Below, one piece after another: positions 28,498 to 37,938 of a DNA stretch of 37,938 bases. The stretch covers positions 1 through 37,938 of the forward strand of contig WJMD01000110.1 of the NCBI GenBank assembly GCA_014728125.1. The letters are read 5' to 3'. The position numbers and the translations under genes were made by a program. Positions within the stretch are counted from its first letter, which is position 1; every line of letters begins with the position of its first letter. The stretch is from Candidatus Effluviviaceae Genus V sp. GTDB taxonomy: Bacteria; Joyebacterota; Joyebacteria; Joyebacterales; Joyebacteraceae. Below the pieces are notes generated by a model. The model saw only the letters and a program-made list of their open reading frames with translations. It was not told the origin of the DNA and did no database searches.

Positions 28498-28526
28498 TTG
28501 CCTCGACGCGTCCCGTCCGGTATAAG
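28498..28526 (+). promoter_or_regulatory. Predicted promoter for the ATPase-DUF2254-transglutaminase unit
   Basis: TTGCCT, a 17-base spacer and TATAAG, beginning 8 bases after the nadE stop and ending 70 bases before the ATPase start. It is one of only two here with a TATAAT-like rather than TAG-type -10. Confidence 0.65.
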
Positions 28527-28596
28527 AGCAGGAAGCGCGTCCGTTCTGGACTCGGACGCCTCGAACGGACGACACCGAATCGGTCCGGAGGGAATC

Positions 28597-31386
28597 TTGC
28601 CCCAGGAAGAGACCACGGCCTACTACCGGATGACTGTCGAGGAGGCCCTCGGCGCTCTGGAGACGTCCCCCAAGGGCCTGCCCAGAGACGAGGCCGACAG
28701 GCGCCGCGACGAGCACGGCCCGAACGAGCTCTCCGGCGAGTTCCACGTCTCGAAGATCCTGACCTTCCTCAAGCAGTTCCGCGATGTCTTCGTCATTCTG
28801 CTCATCATCGCGGCCGGCATCTCGTACGCCATCGGCAGCTTTCGCGACGGTTCCGTGATGCTGGCCATCGTCGTCGTCAACGCCGTCATCGGGTTCATCC
28901 AGGAGTACAAGGCCGGCAAGATCGTTGAGAGCCTGCGCAACCTCATCCGCTCGCCGGCGCGCGTCGTGGTCGGAGGCGAGCTGTCCGAGATCCCGCAGCA
29001 CCAGCTCGTCCCGGGGGACATCGTGCGCGTCGAGGCCGGCGACAAGATCCCGGCCGACATGCGCATCATCGAGTCGTTCAACCTCAGGACGAACGACTTC
29101 TCGCTCACCGGCGAGTCGACACCGCAGGGGAAGCACACGAACGCGGTGCGCGAGGAAGCGGTCCTGGCCGACCGCGACAACATGGCCTATCTCGGCACGA
29201 CCGTCGCGTCGGGCACGGCGACGGGGGTCGTCACGGCGACCGGCATGGAAACCGAGATGGGGAAGATCGCGGGCATGACGCAGGCGACCCGCGAGATACC
29301 GTCGCCGCTCGAGCGGGAGCTTTCGTCGCTCGCCAACAGGCTGACGGTCGTCGTGATCGTGATCAGCGCGACGCTCTTCGGCGTCGCCCTCTGGCAGGGG
29401 TTCAGCCTCTACACCAGTCTGATCTACGCGCTGGGGATCGCGGTCGCGATGGTCCCTCAGGCGCTCCCGGCCCAGGTGACGGTCGCCCTTTCCTCGACCA
29501 GCAAGCTCCTGGCGGAGCGGAACGCCGTCGTCAAGAACCTGCCCTCCGTAGAGACGCTCGGCTCGACGACCGTCATCTGCACCGATAAGACCGGGACGCT
29601 GACCAAGAACGAGATGACCGTTCAGAAGGTGTGGTTCGACGGAGAGCACCACGAGTTGACGGGCCTCGGCTATGAGCCCGAGGGCGAGATCCTGGGAGAG
29701 GACGGGCAGGCGCTCTCGAAGGAGGAGATCGACGAGATCGAGGTCCTGATGGACGCGGCCACGATGGCGTCGAACGCCGAGATCCACGAACCCGACGAGG
29801 ACCATCCCACCTGGTATGCGGTCGGAGACCCCACCGAGGCGGCCCTCGTGACGATGTCGACGAAGCTCGGAACTCGCTCCCCCAGGGAGGACGAGGAGAA
29901 CCCCGAGCTCCACGAGTTCCCGTTCGACTCCGAGAGGAAGCGCATGAGCTCGGTGCGCCAGTTCGGCGACCGGGTCGAGCTGGCGATGAAGGGCGCGACC
30001 GACAGCGTCCTTGCCATCTCGAAGTCGATCTACAAGGACGGCGAGGTCCGCCCGATCACCGACGAGGACCGCGAGCGCATCAGGAGGATCAACGAGGAGT
30101 ACTCCAACCAGGCGCTCCGCGTGCTCGCCATCGCGTTCCGACCGCTGGACGAGCAGGGCAGGGACTACGACATCGAGGAGGTCGAGAAGGACGTCACCTT
30201 CCTCGGTCTCGTCGGTATGATCGACCCGCCGAAGGAGGGCGTCAGGGAGGCGGTCGCCGAGTGCCGGAAGGCACACATCCGGACCTTCATCATGACCGGC
30301 GACCACGCGATCACGGCACAGGCCGTCGGCCGTGAGATCGGGCTCTTCGAACCCGACGACCCGGCTCCAGTTATCACCGGACGCGAGCTCGGCGGGATAG
30401 AGGACGAGGAGCTCGCGAAGACGATGGCGGACAACAGGGCGATCATCTTCTCCAGGGTCGCTCCCGAGGACAAACTGAGGATCGTCGATCTCCTCTCGAA
30501 CAGGGGAGAGGTGGTCGCCGTGACGGGAGACGGCGTGAACGACGCCCCCGCGCTCAAGCGCGCCGACATCGGCGTCGCCATGGGACAGATCGGCACCGAC
30601 GTGGCAAAGGAGGCCTCGGAGCTCGTCCTGCTGGACGACAGCTTTCCGACGCTCGTCGAGGCCGTGCGTCAGGGACGGACGATCTATGCGAACATCCGCA
30701 AGATCGTCCTGGCGTCGCTCACGACGAACGGAGCCGAGCTCTTCGTCGTACTGTTCGGACTGGCCGCGGCCGCCCTCCAGGACTGGGCCATCGGCATCCT
30801 TGCCATCCAGATCCTCGCGATCGACCTTCTGGCCGAGATCCTGCCGCTGACCTCACTGACGTTCGATCCGCCCAACGAGGCCATGATGAGCTCGAGGCCG
30901 CGGGATCTAGACGATCACATTCTCAATCGAAGCACGGCTCCGGAGGTCGCCTGGCTCGGGCTCCTCATCGGCGGACTCGCCTTCGTCAACTACGTGCTGT
31001 TCATGGTCAGGGAGAACACGTTCTTCATGACCGACGTGGGACGGAACGCGATGTACGCCAGGGGGACGACACTGGCCTATCTGACGATCGCCTACTGCCA
31101 GTTCGCCAACATCCTCTCGAGGCGCTACGAGCGCACGACGGTCTTCAACAGGAACTTCTGGACGAACCGGCCCATGCTCATCTCGGTGGCCGCGTCGATC
31201 GTCATGACGTCGGTCGCGGTCTACGCTCCGGGGATCTCGGACTTCCTCTTCTTCGAGGGGCCGACGGCCGCCGACTGGGTCTACATCCTGGGGGCCGGCC
31301 TCCTGTACCTGGGGGTCTTCGAGGCCATGAAGGCCGTCAAGCGGCGCAGGCCCGCCGCGGCGCCGTACGCGGCCCGGAAGGAGTGA
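28597..31386 (+). CDS. P2-type cation-transporting ATPase with altered ion-site residues
   Basis: A 929-residue P-type ATPase of the Ca2+/SERCA-like group. It has the N-terminal cation ATPase segment, TGES (171-174), phosphorylation motif DKTGTLT with Asp330, 'TGDGVNDAPALKRADIG', and about ten membrane helices. Compared with SERCA, the M4 PEGLP motif is PQALP (Gln288 for Glu309); M5 keeps N711 and E714 (for N768 and E771); M6 has D743, A746 and E747 (for N796, T799 and D800). The transported ion is therefore uncertain; Ca2+ is only one option. TTG 28597 is chosen for its GGAGG site five bases upstream; ATG 28630 has none. A four-base gap separates it from the DUF2254 gene. Confidence 0.9.
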   Translation: MPQEETTAYYRMTVEEALGALETSPKGLPRDEADRRRDEHGPNELSGEFHVSKILTFLKQFRDVFVILLIIAAGISYAIGSFRDGSVMLAIVVVNAVIGFIQEYKAGKIVESLRNLIRSPARVVVGGELSEIPQHQLVPGDIVRVEAGDKIPADMRIIESFNLRTNDFSLTGESTPQGKHTNAVREEAVLADRDNMAYLGTTVASGTATGVVTATGMETEMGKIAGMTQATREIPSPLERELSSLANRLTVVVIVISATLFGVALWQGFSLYTSLIYALGIAVAMVPQALPAQVTVALSSTSKLLAERNAVVKNLPSVETLGSTTVICTDKTGTLTKNEMTVQKVWFDGEHHELTGLGYEPEGEILGEDGQALSKEEIDEIEVLMDAATMASNAEIHEPDEDHPTWYAVGDPTEAALVTMSTKLGTRSPREDEENPELHEFPFDSERKRMSSVRQFGDRVELAMKGATDSVLAISKSIYKDGEVRPITDEDRERIRRINEEYSNQALRVLAIAFRPLDEQGRDYDIEEVEKDVTFLGLVGMIDPPKEGVREAVAECRKAHIRTFIMTGDHAITAQAVGREIGLFEPDDPAPVITGRELGGIEDEELAKTMADNRAIIFSRVAPEDKLRIVDLLSNRGEVVAVTGDGVNDAPALKRADIGVAMGQIGTDVAKEASELVLLDDSFPTLVEAVRQGRTIYANIRKIVLASLTTNGAELFVVLFGLAAAALQDWAIGILAIQILAIDLLAEILPLTSLTFDPPNEAMMSSRPRDLDDHILNRSTAPEVAWLGLLIGGLAFVNYVLFMVRENTFFMTDVGRNAMYARGTTLAYLTIAYCQFANILSRRYERTTVFNRNFWTNRPMLISVAASIVMTSVAVYAPGISDFLFFEGPTAADWVYILGAGLLYLGVFEAMKAVKRRRPAAAPYAARKE

Positions 31387-31390
31387 CATC

Positions 31391-32749
31391 GTGCGCACCT
31401 GGCTCGAGAACCGTCTCGAGATCCTGAGCACGAACTTCTGGACCCTGCCCGCGGCGATGGCTGTCGCCGCTCTGGCTCTCTCGCTCTCTCTCGTGTCGAT
31501 CGACATGCGCGTCACGATCGACTTCGGGGGACCGGTCGGCTGGCTCAACATCGGCAGCATCGAGGGCGTCAGAACGCTCCTCGCAACGCTCGTCGGCTCG
31601 CTCGTGACCGTGCTCGCGCTCGTCTTCTCCATTACGATCGTCGCGCTGACGCTCGCCGCGTCGCAGCTCGGGCCGCGCCTTCTCCGCAACTTCATGCGCG
31701 ACCGGAGCAACCAGGGCGTTATCGGCGTCTTCACCGCGACCTTCCTCTACACACTGGTGGCGCTGCTCTCGGTCGGCCGCCTCGAGGCGCGCGGCGTCGT
31801 GCCCCATATCACCGTCTTCGGCGCGTTCGTTCTGACGACATGGAGCGTCGCGGTCCTCGTGTACTTCATCCATCACGTCTCGGAGTCGATCCAGGCGCCG
31901 AACGTCGTCCTGGCGGTTTCGCGTGAGCTGGAGGGCGTCATCACCCGGCTCTTCCCTCCGAACGACCCCGAGGCCGCCCCTGAGGAGCCGACGAAGCCGC
32001 CGAAGGACATCTGGAGCCGCGAGGCGGGAGAGGCCTGCTCGCCGCGGAGCGCCTACGTTCAGGCGATCAACGAGGGGAAGCTCGTGTCCGTCGCGAAGGC
32101 CCACGACGTCGTGCTCGACGTCGAGCTGCGCCCGGGAGACTTCGTGGCGGCCGGCCAGGCGCTGGCCTCGGCGTACGGCGACGAGCCTCTTGAGGAGGAC
32201 GCGAGGGAGGCGATCGCGGACGCCTTCTTCCTCGGCGAGAGGCGGACCGCCACGCAGGACGTGGAGTACGTCCTGATGCAGCTCGTCGAGATCGCCGTCC
32301 GCGCGCTCTCGCCCGGGATCAACGACCCCTTCACGGCGATGACCTGCATCGACAGGATCGGATCGGCACTGGGTCTGCTGATGTCCCGGGCCGAGCGGCC
32401 GAGGCGACTGGCCGACGACGACGGCGCGCTCAGAGTCGTGCTCGATCGAACGGACTTCGACGGCATCATGGGAACCGGGCTCCGGCAGATACGTCAGCAC
32501 GGCTCGTCGCAGGCGGCGGTGCTCATCCGGATGCTCGAGGTGCTTGCCCGACTCGGGGGGACCGCTCGAACGGACGAACAGCGCGCGTCGATCAGGAAGC
32601 ACGCGGACGCCGTCGCCAGAGCGGGGGAGGCGCTTTCAGAAGAATCGGACCGAATGGACATCGTGGGCCGACACAGGGCAGTCCTTGCGGCTCTCGGAGA
32701 CACCTCCGAACAGGGAGTGAACGACACCGAGGAAGGGAGTGGAACGTGA
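31391..32749 (+). CDS. DUF2254 membrane protein
   Basis: A 452-residue protein of the DUF2254 family, function unknown. It has four hydrophobic segments near residues 18-36, 61-91, 107-129 and 139-160, with the conserved 'SQLGPRLLRNFMRDRSNQ' between the second and third. A large soluble part follows, including 'SPRSAYVQAINEGKLVSVA', 'LDVELRPGDFVAAGQALA' and 'ALSPGINDPFTAMTCIDR', all family-like. It starts at GTG 31391, four bases after the ATPase stop, and its stop overlaps the next start (GTGA). The coupling to an ion pump suggests a role in ion handling or membrane state, which is inference. Confidence 0.87.
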   Translation: MRTWLENRLEILSTNFWTLPAAMAVAALALSLSLVSIDMRVTIDFGGPVGWLNIGSIEGVRTLLATLVGSLVTVLALVFSITIVALTLAASQLGPRLLRNFMRDRSNQGVIGVFTATFLYTLVALLSVGRLEARGVVPHITVFGAFVLTTWSVAVLVYFIHHVSESIQAPNVVLAVSRELEGVITRLFPPNDPEAAPEEPTKPPKDIWSREAGEACSPRSAYVQAINEGKLVSVAKAHDVVLDVELRPGDFVAAGQALASAYGDEPLEEDAREAIADAFFLGERRTATQDVEYVLMQLVEIAVRALSPGINDPFTAMTCIDRIGSALGLLMSRAERPRRLADDDGALRVVLDRTDFDGIMGTGLRQIRQHGSSQAAVLIRMLEVLARLGGTARTDEQRASIRKHADAVARAGEALSEESDRMDIVGRHRAVLAALGDTSEQGVNDTEEGSGT

Positions 32750-34803
32750 GCTTTCGATACCTCCTGTTGCCGCTCGTCGCGGCCCTCGCACTTCTCGCGG
32801 CGACCGCAGTCGCTCAGACGGGAGAGCAGCAGAGCGACCTGCCTCCGGGCGACGTCCCGCCGCCGACGCTCGTCGACCGCGTAGAGAGCGCCGGGACGGC
32901 TGAGGACCACGACGGGGCGGACTACGTGGTGGTCTTCGAGCACGCCGTCAACCGCGTGAGCGATCTCGGCGTGAGCACCGTGAACGAGACGGTCGTCTAC
33001 AAGGCCCTGACGGCGGCGGGCTGCAGGAACCTCGCCGTCCGGACGTGGTGGTACGAGCCGTGGAGCCGGATGATGAGGATCGAGGCCGCCGCCGTCATCC
33101 GGGACGGCGAGCTCATCCCGTTCGACGTGGACGCTCTGGACCTCCCGGCGCCCCAGTCGTCGATCTACTGGAACGCCCGGATCCGGATGCTGCAGACGCC
33201 GCGCCTGAACGTCGGCGACGGCCTCATGTTGAAGCTGTTCAGAAAGGGATACTCCTACGCGCTGCTGGAAGAGAACGGCGCGGCCGCGACCTCGGTGTCC
33301 ACAGCGGCGACGGACTCCGAGGAGGACGGCAAGTATGTTCCTCCCATGCCCGGGGAGTACTTCGACATCGTCCTCTTCCAGGAGAGCGTGCCGGTCATCG
33401 AGCGACGCTACGAGCTCGTCCTGCCTGCCGACAAGCGGATCCACTCCGAGACCTATAACGGGCCGCTCTACTCGTCGACGACCTACTCCGGCGACTCCAC
33501 GCGCTACGCCTGGTGGGCGAAGGACGTTCCAGCCCGGCCCTCCGAGTACAGAAGCGCTGCGGCGAGCGACATCTCGCCGAAGGTCGTCCTTGCGACGGTC
33601 GAGAGCTGGGAGGCGAAAAGCCGCTGGTTCTTCGACGTCAACCGGAACCAGTTCGACGTCACGCCCGAGATCCAGGCGAAGATCGACGAGATCCTCGAGG
33701 TTGCCGGCGTCGCCCGTGGCACGGAGGAGCAGAAGGCCGAGGTCCTCGTCCACTGGGTCGCCCAGAACATCCGGTACAGCGGGCAGACGATGGGCGAGGG
33801 CGAGGGGTTCATGCTGCATCCCGGATGGATGATCTTCGAGCAGCGGAGCGGCGTCTGCAAGGACATCGCGGGGATGCTCATCACCATGATGCGCGCGGCC
33901 GGGATGGACTCGTACGGCGCGATGACGATGGCGGGGAGCCGCATCGAGGAGGTGCCCGCCGACCAGTTCAACCACTGCGTCACTGCCCTCCGGACGGACG
34001 ACGGCTCGTTCGTCATGTACGACCCGACGTGGGTCCCGTACGTCAACGACATCTGGTCGAAGTACGAGACTGAGCAGCAGTACCTCATCGGCACGGCGGA
34101 GGGAGAGTACCTCGCGACCATTCCGTACAGTCCACCCGAGGAGTCGCCGCTCCGAGTCGACCACGAGGCGACGCTCTCCGTGGACGGCACGCTCGAGGGG
34201 ACACTCAGACTGGAGACGGCGGGCGCGCTCGACGGACGTCTGAGGAACCTCGTCGGGTGGAGACGGCGCGCCGACCTGCACCGCGACATCGCGGGCCTCC
34301 TGTCGCACATCGGTCCGGCCGTCGAGTCGTTCGAGTTCGACCATCCCGAACGGGACGATTTCAGTCAGAACATGTGGCTTGAGATCGAGTACCGCCTCCG
34401 GGATGCGGCGCTTCCGGTGGGGCAGGGACTCGAGTTCAGAAGTCCGGCGACGGCCGTCGTGCTTAACGACGGATGGCTCTTCCGGGCGGGCGTCCGCGAC
34501 TGGCCCGAGGACAGGGAGACCGACCTGTTCCTCTGGTTCACGCAGCTGGTCGACATCCGCGAGAGGATCACCGTTCCGCGCGGGTACGATCTGGTGGAGT
34601 CGCCGGAGGCCGACGAGGTCGACGCGACCTACGCGGCGTTCGCAGCGTCGTTCGAGCTCGACGGACGGACGCTGGCCATCGACTCGGAGGCCGAGGTCCG
34701 CAGGCGTCAGATTCCTCCCGAGGGATACGCCGGGTTCAGAGAAGCGATCACCGCCATGAGAACGTGGGGTGACGGGATCTACCGTGTCGAGGAGGCCGAC
34801 TGA
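32746..34803 (+). CDS. DUF3857 / transglutaminase-like exported protein, triad intact
   Basis: A 685-residue protein with an N-terminal signal peptide (about 1-24, ending near AVAQTG), an N-terminal beta-rich domain of the DUF3857 type (about 50-250), a transglutaminase-like domain (about 310-440) and a further beta-rich C-terminal part. The Cys-His-Asp triad is complete: C371 (RSGVCKDIAGML), H410 (QFNHCV) and D426 (MYDPT). It could act as a peptidase, cross-linking enzyme or acyltransferase in the periplasm or at the cell surface; the substrate is unknown. GTG 32746 overlaps the DUF2254 stop. It is paired with a related protein directly downstream (TGATG). Confidence 0.87.
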   Translation: MSFRYLLLPLVAALALLAATAVAQTGEQQSDLPPGDVPPPTLVDRVESAGTAEDHDGADYVVVFEHAVNRVSDLGVSTVNETVVYKALTAAGCRNLAVRTWWYEPWSRMMRIEAAAVIRDGELIPFDVDALDLPAPQSSIYWNARIRMLQTPRLNVGDGLMLKLFRKGYSYALLEENGAAATSVSTAATDSEEDGKYVPPMPGEYFDIVLFQESVPVIERRYELVLPADKRIHSETYNGPLYSSTTYSGDSTRYAWWAKDVPARPSEYRSAAASDISPKVVLATVESWEAKSRWFFDVNRNQFDVTPEIQAKIDEILEVAGVARGTEEQKAEVLVHWVAQNIRYSGQTMGEGEGFMLHPGWMIFEQRSGVCKDIAGMLITMMRAAGMDSYGAMTMAGSRIEEVPADQFNHCVTALRTDDGSFVMYDPTWVPYVNDIWSKYETEQQYLIGTAEGEYLATIPYSPPEESPLRVDHEATLSVDGTLEGTLRLETAGALDGRLRNLVGWRRRADLHRDIAGLLSHIGPAVESFEFDHPERDDFSQNMWLEIEYRLRDAALPVGQGLEFRSPATAVVLNDGWLFRAGVRDWPEDRETDLFLWFTQLVDIRERITVPRGYDLVESPEADEVDATYAAFAASFELDGRTLAIDSEAEVRRRQIPPEGYAGFREAITAMRTWGDGIYRVEEAD

Positions 34804-36698
34804 TGAGAACGCGCACAACCATCATCCTCACCGCGGCCGCCGTCTTCGCCCTGGCGTCCGCCGCAGCGGCGGTTCCGGCGGACGCCGCGGGCCGACACGA
34901 CATCGGCCGCCTGCTCGAGCTCGGCGACCAGTGGTTCGACCTGGAGAGCCAGGACGCCGTCATCCTGCTCGATTCGCTCCACATCGAGCGGCTGCCGTCC
35001 GGAACGGTCGTCAGGACGACGCACACGATCGTCTGGTTCGGAACGGAGAACGGTCTCGACGCCTATGCAGACGTGCACGTTCCATGGAACGCCCTCACCG
35101 GCTCGATCGAGGTCCACCACCTCAGGACCTGGAGGGACGAACGATGGTGGCCCGCGCCGGACTCGGTGAGCCGGACGGCCGTCGTCGAAACCACCCCGGG
35201 GGCGGTGTACAGCGCATACGACTACGCGAAGGCGCTCAGACAGCAGGCGCTCCTTCACGACGGGGTCGAGGTACCGTGCGTTGTCGAGACCCGCTACACG
35301 GTGACCGAGGCCCGGGCGCCCTCGCTCGGGATGGACGGTTCACGGGTCGCCTCGGCGCCCGACCCGACGGTGAGGAACGCTCTCTTCCTGCGGATGCCGG
35401 AGGGCGAGAACGTCGCCTTCGAGACCCTGCGCGGCGCGCCGGCGCCGGAGGTGTCGGGCGACGGCGGGCACGCCTGGAGCATGACCCGGATCGACCGGCT
35501 CGGACGGCCTCTGGTTCGCGACCGGACCGCGGCGTCTCCGACGCTCGTCTGGTCGACCTGGCCCTCGTGGGACGCGCTGGCCGAGTCGTTCCTGACGCCG
35601 TTCGAGGGGGCCGCCGTGCTCGAAGGCGCGCCGCTCGACAGCCTGGCCGAGCGAACGAAGGGCCGACACGGGGCGGAGGACCTGGCCCGGGCCGCGGCGG
35701 CCTATCTCGCCGAGGCGACGCGGCACGTCGGCGCGGACCACGGAGCATGGCTGTTCGGTCCGCGTCCCGCGCAGAGGACCTGGGAGACATCCTACGGGCA
35801 CGCCGTCGACCGCGCGGTGGCGGCCTGTGCGCTCCTCCGCGAGGTCGGCCTCGAGGCCGAACCGGTCTGGGTCGGATATCGGGACACGGATCTCACGGAG
35901 AGCCCACCGGGGCTCTCGCGGTTCGAGCAGCTCCTCGTCGAAGTGCGCGGCGCCGGGTTCCAGGGCACGCTCGATCCGGCGACGGCGCGGCTGACATCGG
36001 CAGGTCCCACCGTGGCGGGGCGCACGCTCTGGCGTCCCGGAGACGAAGACCCGTCGCATCGGCCGGCGGAGCCGGGCGTCCTCGAGGTGGCTGTCCGTCT
36101 TGAGCGCAACGAGGACGGCGGGTTCGGGGGCCGGGGCTACGTGCTGGGAACCGGCTGGCTCGCCCCGTACGGGAGCGTGGCCGGTCTGGATGGCGCGCTC
36201 GGCGGTTACGCGGACCGGCTCGTTCGCTCGGTGCTTCCAGGATCGAGTGCCGAAAGCCCCGGTCTGACCGCTCTGGAGACATCGAGGGTCGAGGCGGGGT
36301 TCGACGTGGTCCTGGATGCGCCCGGGGAAGATGACCTGGGTCGCATCCCGCTCGTCGTCGGGGACCCGACCGGCGGGATTCTCGACGGGTTCGAGCCGTC
36401 GCTCGAACTCGCGGTCCCGACACGCGGGACCGCCGTCCGGCTTCCGGCTCCCGCGACGCAGAGCGTGATGCTTGAGATCGACACAGGAGAGGGCGAGCCG
36501 GCTCACGTCCCCGAGGAGACCGACCTTCGGAACGAGGCGGGGACGTTCTCGCTCACCGTCGACCGGGACGGTTCCTGGGTAACCGTCGAGCGGAGACTCG
36601 AGGTCGACAACGACGTCGGTCCGGACCTCTGGCCCGAGCTCAGAGCGCTCCTCCTGGAATGGAACGCCCCTAGGAACAGGACCCTGCTGCTCGACTGA
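34803..36698 (+). CDS. DUF3857 / transglutaminase-like exported protein lacking the catalytic Cys and His
   Basis: A 631-residue protein with a signal peptide (about 1-29), a DUF3857-like N-terminal region and a degenerate transglutaminase fold near residues 290-395. The helix that should carry G-X-C-X-D reads G332-H-A334-V-D336 and continues 'RAVAACALLREVGLEAEPVW' as in true enzymes, so alignment is secure and Cys is Ala. The His strand reads 'FEQLLVEVRG', without His; the Asp strand 'GTLDPATAR' keeps Asp. It is probably a non-catalytic partner of the upstream protein. ATG 34803 shares one base with the previous stop. A hairpin terminator follows. Confidence 0.8.
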   Translation: MRTRTTIILTAAAVFALASAAAAVPADAAGRHDIGRLLELGDQWFDLESQDAVILLDSLHIERLPSGTVVRTTHTIVWFGTENGLDAYADVHVPWNALTGSIEVHHLRTWRDERWWPAPDSVSRTAVVETTPGAVYSAYDYAKALRQQALLHDGVEVPCVVETRYTVTEARAPSLGMDGSRVASAPDPTVRNALFLRMPEGENVAFETLRGAPAPEVSGDGGHAWSMTRIDRLGRPLVRDRTAASPTLVWSTWPSWDALAESFLTPFEGAAVLEGAPLDSLAERTKGRHGAEDLARAAAAYLAEATRHVGADHGAWLFGPRPAQRTWETSYGHAVDRAVAACALLREVGLEAEPVWVGYRDTDLTESPPGLSRFEQLLVEVRGAGFQGTLDPATARLTSAGPTVAGRTLWRPGDEDPSHRPAEPGVLEVAVRLERNEDGGFGGRGYVLGTGWLAPYGSVAGLDGALGGYADRLVRSVLPGSSAESPGLTALETSRVEAGFDVVLDAPGEDDLGRIPLVVGDPTGGILDGFEPSLELAVPTRGTAVRLPAPATQSVMLEIDTGEGEPAHVPEETDLRNEAGTFSLTVDRDGSWVTVERRLEVDNDVGPDLWPELRALLLEWNAPRNRTLLLD

Positions 36699-36722
36699 AG
36701 CGGTCACAGCGGACGAACACAG

Positions 36723-36752
36723 AGGGGCCCGGGCACGGCGCTCGGGCCCCTT
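36723..36752 (+). terminator. Hairpin terminator after the four-gene unit
   Basis: GGGGCCCG pairs with CGGGCCCC, with one more outer A-T pair, around a roughly 11-base loop, 25 bases after the last stop and followed by TTCTCGT. It is a strong stem with only a minimal U-tract. Confidence 0.65.
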
Positions 36753-37192: not shown

Positions 37193-37938
37193 ATGAGAAG
37201 CACGATTTTCGCACTGACGGCGGTCGCGCTGATCGTCTGTCTCGCCGTTCCGGCCGCCATGGCCAAGGGCGACGGAACCGAGTACAGGAGCGCCATGTCG
37301 ATCGTCGACTTCGAGCAGCAGTCGAGGTCACAGCACGAGGGCACCAGACTCGACACGCTGTGGATCTTCGACGCGGACTTCTCGGACCTCACCGGCGACA
37401 ACGCCGGCTGGACGGCCTGGGACCGCAGCGGCACGCTCGGACAGGAGAACTACTGGCATCACGACACGATCCGCATCAACGGCTTCACCCATCTGGGCGA
37501 CAGCACGTGGTGGTGCGGTACGGAGAACGTGTGCTGGCGTCAGCCGCGCGGGTACGGCAACGACTGGATCCAGATCCTCGAGCGCGAGTTCACCGAGATG
37601 GCCACGGCCACCGGCGGCGTGACGCTCGAGTGGGACCAGCGTATCGCCATGGAGCACGATTACGACTACGGGTACGTCGACGTCTCGACGGACGGCGGCG
37701 CGACCTGGACGAACCTGTACTGGGTCTCGAACCCGGGCTTCAGCGGGAAGCCGGGTTCGTCGAAAGACTGGGACGACCCGACGTACGGACACGAGAGCCT
37801 CGACCTCACGTCCTACGCGGGTTCGACCATCGACCTTCGCTTCCGCTTCGAGGCGGACGTTGCGTACTCGTCGCAGGATCAGTTCAACAACCCGCCGCAG
37901 GAGTCGGTGAAGGACGGCGCCTGGCAGCTCGACAACAT
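37193..37938 (+). CDS. Secreted beta-sandwich protein (immune-inhibitor-A-like domain), partial
   Basis: The frame runs off the right edge after 248 codons. A signal peptide (about 1-24, ALTAVALIVCLAVPAAMA) is followed by a Trp/Tyr/Asp-rich region. The parts 'GGVTLEWDQRIAMEHDYDYG', 'VDVSTDGGATWTNL', 'LDLTSYAGSTIDLRFRFEAD' and the final 'KDGAWQLDN' are the pattern of the MAM-like / immune inhibitor A (peptidase M6-associated) beta-sandwich, common in large secreted proteins of deep-branching diderm phyla. No catalytic motif is visible in the part present; a protease or sorting domain could follow beyond the edge. ATG 37193 follows GAGAAGGGGGGA. Confidence 0.75.
   Translation, partial: MRSTIFALTAVALIVCLAVPAAMAKGDGTEYRSAMSIVDFEQQSRSQHEGTRLDTLWIFDADFSDLTGDNAGWTAWDRSGTLGQENYWHHDTIRINGFTHLGDSTWWCGTENVCWRQPRGYGNDWIQILEREFTEMATATGGVTLEWDQRIAMEHDYDYGYVDVSTDGGATWTNLYWVSNPGFSGKPGSSKDWDDPTYGHESLDLTSYAGSTIDLRFRFEADVAYSSQDQFNNPPQESVKDGAWQLDN

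Follow-up and report, generated by a model that had tools for sequence, protein, structure and literature searches.

LapG and HvyA, of the BTLCP family, are periplasmic transglutaminase-fold enzymes which act on envelope targets by means of a Cys-His-Asp triad (PMC3032545, PMC4241560). A transglutaminase-fold cysteine protease is also known in vasohibin (PMC4866520), and VASH2-SVBP was described as a heterodimer in which the partner has no catalytic function (PMC6642083). Neither LapG/HvyA nor VASH2-SVBP employs a degenerate twin of the enzyme, unlike the gene pair reported here, named TG1 and TG2. TG1 resembles the BTLCP enzymes in its export, fold and triad. However, these enzymes carry the PF06035 domain and are associated with a LapD-type regulator, whereas TG1 has a DUF3857 domain and a dead twin; PF06035 was not matched at E values up to 0.01, and membership of the BTLCP family was therefore rejected. 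Vasohibin-SVBP can be likened to TG1-TG2 as a transglutaminase-fold enzyme with a non-catalytic partner, but it is eukaryotic and, where TG2 is a degenerate version of the enzyme, SVBP is a separate small protein.

The pair was found in a stretch of 37,938 nucleotides, hereafter the window, which forms contig 110 in a draft genome of 2.5 Mb. The genome is assigned to Candidatus Effluviviacota, a phylum from seeps whose relatives are Eisenbacteria and Latescibacterota (PMC11323493).

Gene organization of the locus

Four genes lie closely packed on the + strand. They encode a P2A-like P-type cation ATPase of 929 aa (28597-31386; Pfam, NCBIfam and a phmmer match to 6zhf, LMCA1), a DUF2254 membrane protein of 452 aa (31391-32749; PF10011, E 9e-118, 393.7 bits against a cut-off of 28.8), TG1, an exported 685-aa protein with DUF3857 and a transglutaminase core (32746-34803), and TG2, an exported 631-aa protein with DUF3857, a degenerate transglutaminase core and DUF3858 (34803-36698). 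Four bases separate the ATPase and DUF2254 genes, a GTGA overlap joins DUF2254 to TG1 and a TGATG overlap joins TG1 to TG2. A previous sequence-only reading of this DNA had listed the same four open reading frames, tight junctions and families, all of which were confirmed, including PF12969 and PF01841 in both exported proteins, PF01841 falling below its curated cut-off in TG2.

The same reading had placed one promoter in front of these genes and a strong hairpin behind them. The candidate sigma-70-type promoter, TTGCCT-N17-TATAAG (28498-28526, + strand), matches the consensus at 9 of 12 positions and is the sole site of this quality on the + strand between 28001 and 37000. However, mononucleotide shuffles yield about one such site per 9 kb, which corresponds to chance level, and the site was missing from the output of a stricter promoter scanner, so that this promoter is plausible and carries no statistical significance. 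The most likely start of the ATPase is TTG 28597, preceded by GGAGGG, rather than 28498. At the other end, the hairpin 3' of TG2 (about 36724-36750, + strand, announced at 36723-36752) has an 11-bp stem and proved stable upon folding (-31.6 kcal/mol, z -3.16), and it may mark the end of the transcript. It reads as no canonical intrinsic terminator, because a proper T-run is missing, and was absent from intrinsic-terminator predictions. Further downstream, positions 37193-37936 encode a secreted protein whose MAM domain is immune-inhibitor-A-like.

The four-gene arrangement is restricted to the window genome

The tight junctions had led to the proposal that the four genes form one system coupling cation export to the modification of envelope proteins. 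In agreement with this view, the ATPase adjoins the pair in six same-family genomes, the window genome counted, and this part of the arrangement therefore predates the window genome. The remaining data speak against it. The DUF2254 gene was found in 1 of 20 same-family genomes, that of the window, and was missing from the other 19; only three clear relatives, at most 36% identical, were recovered among 193 sampled genomes. An ATPase ortholog, about 70-75% identical, occurs in almost all same-family relatives, but it stands beside the pair only in genera g4, g7 and g8 and in the window genome, and apart from it in g3, g5 and g6, which still carry both. No ATPase was seen at any TG pair locus outside the family.

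The slot filled by DUF2254 in the window is itself variable, and may be a hotspot for insertions within the operon. In g4 and g7 an MGMT-type gene (O6-methylguanine-DNA-methyltransferase, PF01035) lies between ATPase and TG1, while in g8 the ATPase directly adjoins TG1 with nothing in this position. The MGMT-type genes of relatives are located at L030:7416-7895, L032:8468-9025 and L031:7475-8092. In g3 and g6, the gene behind the ATPase is related to the MAM-domain gene located downstream of TG2 in the window, and the neighbourhood has therefore been repeatedly rearranged. A survey of co-occurrence and gene order had been suggested together with the proposal, and its result, the complete set adjacent in the window genome alone, is the one that the sequence-only reading had itself named as a refutation. 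The neighbourhood data thus refute the four-gene set as a conserved system, and we regard a coupling of the four products as very improbable. In the window lineage, the ATPase and DUF2254 genes probably share a transcript with the pair as neighbours and lie outside its mechanism.

The ion site of the ATPase was also considered. The protein carries the DKTGT and TGES motifs and shares its full-length P2A-like architecture with Ca2+-ATPases of the LMCA1/PMR1 type (E 1.5e-152 to 6zhf by phmmer), but it scores below the curated equivalog cut-offs (583 versus 798.3 bits for TIGR01522 and 529.7 versus 703.4 for TIGR01116). The TM4 site-II glutamate of PMR1/SERCA-type Ca2+-ATPases is missing: the window protein reads PQAL where PEGL or PEAL is expected, a Glu to Gln change relative to LMCA1/SERCA that the window protein shares with 8 orthologs. 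TM5 contains N-x-x-E, and the Asn/Asp of TM6 is replaced by Asp/Glu. Because of the substitutions in TM4 and TM6, Ca2+ specificity appears doubtful, and the protein may represent a P2 subgroup with unassigned ion specificity. A supply of Ca2+ by the ATPase to a Ca2+-dependent transglutaminase is conceivable, but the ion site departs from the canonical Ca2+ site and the ATPase is linked to the pair only locally.

TG1 and TG2 as a predicted active/inactive pair

TG1 matched PF12969 with 77.5 bits (cut-off 24.6) and PF01841 with 32.9 bits (cut-off 23.0). In TG2, PF12969 (42.6 bits, cut-off 24.6) and PF12970 (33.0 bits, cut-off 27.0) were recovered. The triad of TG1 is invariant among readable orthologs: Cys371 (TGC, 33856-33858, + strand) is conserved in 81/81, His410 (CAC, 33973-33975, + strand) in 80/80 and Asp426 (GAC, 34021-34023, + strand) in 80/80, and TG1 is predicted to be catalytically active. 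The GVCKD motif of TG1 corresponds to GHAVD in TG2, where Ala334 (35802-35804, + strand) occupies the Cys position as set by a local-pair alignment with divergent members. In TG2 orthologs this position is variable and no His is conserved; one of them (L111, YGHCLDRA) has a Cys at the Cys position, yet no His. Having lost both nucleophile and His, TG2 is predicted to be catalytically dead. A YGHxLDRA motif and many fold residues are conserved among its orthologs, which points to selection on TG2 and not to decay.

The N-terminus is hydrophobic in 48/50 TG1 and 73/74 TG2 proteins. No transmembrane segment was predicted in the body of TG1 proteins, and a TM-like segment was seen in just 3 TG2 proteins. 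Both proteins would thus be exported via signal peptides, without a membrane anchor.

Conservation of the TG1-TG2 pair across phyla

A profile search of GTDB genomes with TG1 gave 80 loci of 38-66% identity, out of 262 candidates. Their record titles include Eisenbacteria, Krumholzibacteriota, Latescibacterota, Zixibacteriota, Calditrichaeota, Electryonea and others, Effluviviacota being also covered. Wherever the downstream sequence could be read, in 74/74 loci, TG1 is directly followed by TG2 on the same strand; 7 further loci, which break off at a contig edge or an N-gap, were left out of this count. In 69/74 the two genes overlap by 1 or 4 bases (ATGA/GTGA or TGATG/TAATG). The distance matrices of TG1 and TG2 were closely correlated (r = 0.90, permutation maximum 0.28, n = 53), as is expected of linked genes inherited together. 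The conserved unit is therefore the TG1-TG2 pair, not the four-gene set. The sequence-only call of an active and an inactive transglutaminase-like protein is strongly supported, and the conservation of the pair across phyla goes beyond what had been supposed.

Neighbour clustering of 53 loci revealed no third gene universally linked to the pair. Several partners were recovered, each limited to one lineage, and the genes downstream vary (a MacAB-like exporter, an amidase, GH38, MeaB and others). A universal third partner was rejected, the best candidate being the MacAB-like exporter at 10/53 loci; this linkage fits a role near export, though it is not a general one. The MacAB-like set, composed of a membrane-fusion protein, an ABC ATPase and a permease, stands directly behind TG2 at L060:14083-17419 and at similar loci in at least two lineages.

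Structural models and relation to 3KD4

AF2 models were of high confidence for TG2 (pLDDT 93.2, pTM 0.88) and lower for TG1 (pLDDT 84.9, pTM 0.79), whose low-confidence loops (348-353 and about 390-410) lie near the active site, which weighs against the enzyme-pseudoenzyme reading given below. The best Foldseek match of both proteins was 3KD4 (4.4e-35 for TG2, 1.9e-30 for TG1), which is also their best match by sequence and the sole solved DUF3857/DUF3858 structure that we found. This protein (BDI_1141 from Parabacteroides distasonis, a 'putative protease') has the DUF3857-core-DUF3858 architecture, as in the TG pair. By profile it matches TG2 far better than TG1 (E 6.5e-43 versus 7.5e-7), and a phmmer search of the PDB with the single TG1 sequence gave no match. 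3KD4 reads SAYGTPLEIA where active members have GVCKD and, on these residues, belongs to the dead type; its name as a protease appears doubtful because the catalytic Cys is missing.

Weaker but significant fold matches of TG1 and TG2, over part of their length, were obtained with ribophorin I (OST1) and with the N-terminal domains of M1 aminopeptidases, and the models make a distant relationship between DUF3857 and these domains possible. Such partial likeness, together with the beta-strand-rich model of TG2 around its degenerate core, would suit a TG2 that binds carbohydrate or peptide in the envelope without catalysis, has its own function and stayed beside TG1 merely because the pair arose by tandem duplication. 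Neutral linkage would not preserve the pair without one separation in 74 loci over phylum-level divergence, and we hold this explanation to be quite improbable.

Live-then-dead order in the wider DUF3857 family

DUF3857 was found in 85/290 sampled genomes. Divergent tandems were selected for two domain hits close together, in a sampling that was not exhaustive; all of those read, 15 plus at least 7 more from many unrelated families, have the live copy first and the dead copy second. In every complete tandem Cys, His and Asp are present in the upstream protein, whereas one or both of Cys and His are missing from the downstream protein. The single-copy members that were read are live. The live-then-dead order thus appears general for the DUF3857 tandems read. 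Two half-degenerate second copies were observed, at L129:1143-3107 and L141:528-2651, one with Cys and no His and the other with His and no Cys. The window genome also contains a second, divergent DUF3857 live/dead pair (G000:C14, L041:5378-10435), which is conserved in the family. In three genomes of different families, a live N-terminal and a dead C-terminal half are fused in one frame (L181, 1305 aa; L178, 1282 aa; L179, 1343 aa).

These data bear on another possible role for TG2, as a separate inhibitor, an export or folding chaperone or a substrate-like protein, produced in equimolar amounts from the same mRNA while TG1 is the enzyme. An enzyme followed by its dead copy in overlapping cistrons would fit a dedicated antagonist or chaperone equally well, and TG2 evolves faster than TG1 (mean identity 34% versus 56%), as expected under fewer constraints. 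On the other hand, the three single-chain fusions better fit a permanent complex than a reversible inhibitor, and TG2 retains its entire domain architecture. We consider such a separate role rather unlikely.

Proposed function of the pair

The conservation of TG1 and TG2 side by side in many little-studied bacterial phyla, together with their occasional fusion, suggests one two-part envelope enzyme, and we think it rather likely that they are an exported enzyme-pseudoenzyme pair acting in this manner. TG1 would be a clan-CA transglutaminase-fold enzyme using Cys371-His410-Asp426, which in the periplasm would most likely cleave envelope or secreted proteins or modify them by transamidation or deamidation. 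TG2 is translated from the downstream cistron, which overlaps that of TG1, and keeps the DUF3857-core-DUF3858 architecture; it would bind TG1 as a structural, substrate-positioning, stabilising or regulatory subunit. The genes, the fold, the residues kept in TG1 and lost in TG2, the fixed order, the overlapping junctions and the natural fusions are observed, while the physical complex, probably a heterodimer, and the chemistry, periplasmic site and substrate are inferred. Co-inheritance, coupling and fusion would be equally compatible with two proteins that act one after the other, and linked genes would show a high distance correlation in any case. Single-copy DUF3857 enzymes that have no dead partner also count against this reading, as does the lack of a universally linked third gene.

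A search of the open literature, subscription journals being outside its scope, recovered no description of a DUF3857 live/dead pair, of the order rule or of the fusions. The protein families were already known and enzyme-pseudoenzyme pairs are a known kind; what appears new is the live/dead DUF3857 pair. Tentatively, and with somewhat more doubt than belief, TG1-TG2 could represent an undescribed, phylum-spanning class of heterodimeric periplasmic enzymes in which the degenerate twin is an obligate subunit selecting or presenting envelope or secreted substrates.

DUF3857 is widespread, yet its sole structure came from the dead type and was labelled as a putative protease; annotation of dead members as proteases is unwarranted. 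A live/dead pair with invariant order and natural fusions leads directly to a two-subunit enzyme hypothesis and provides a set of cases on which structure prediction and biochemistry can test it. If this hypothesis is true, a heterodimeric enzyme class, naturally fused forms included, would exist in several phyla whose known members are mostly uncultivated.
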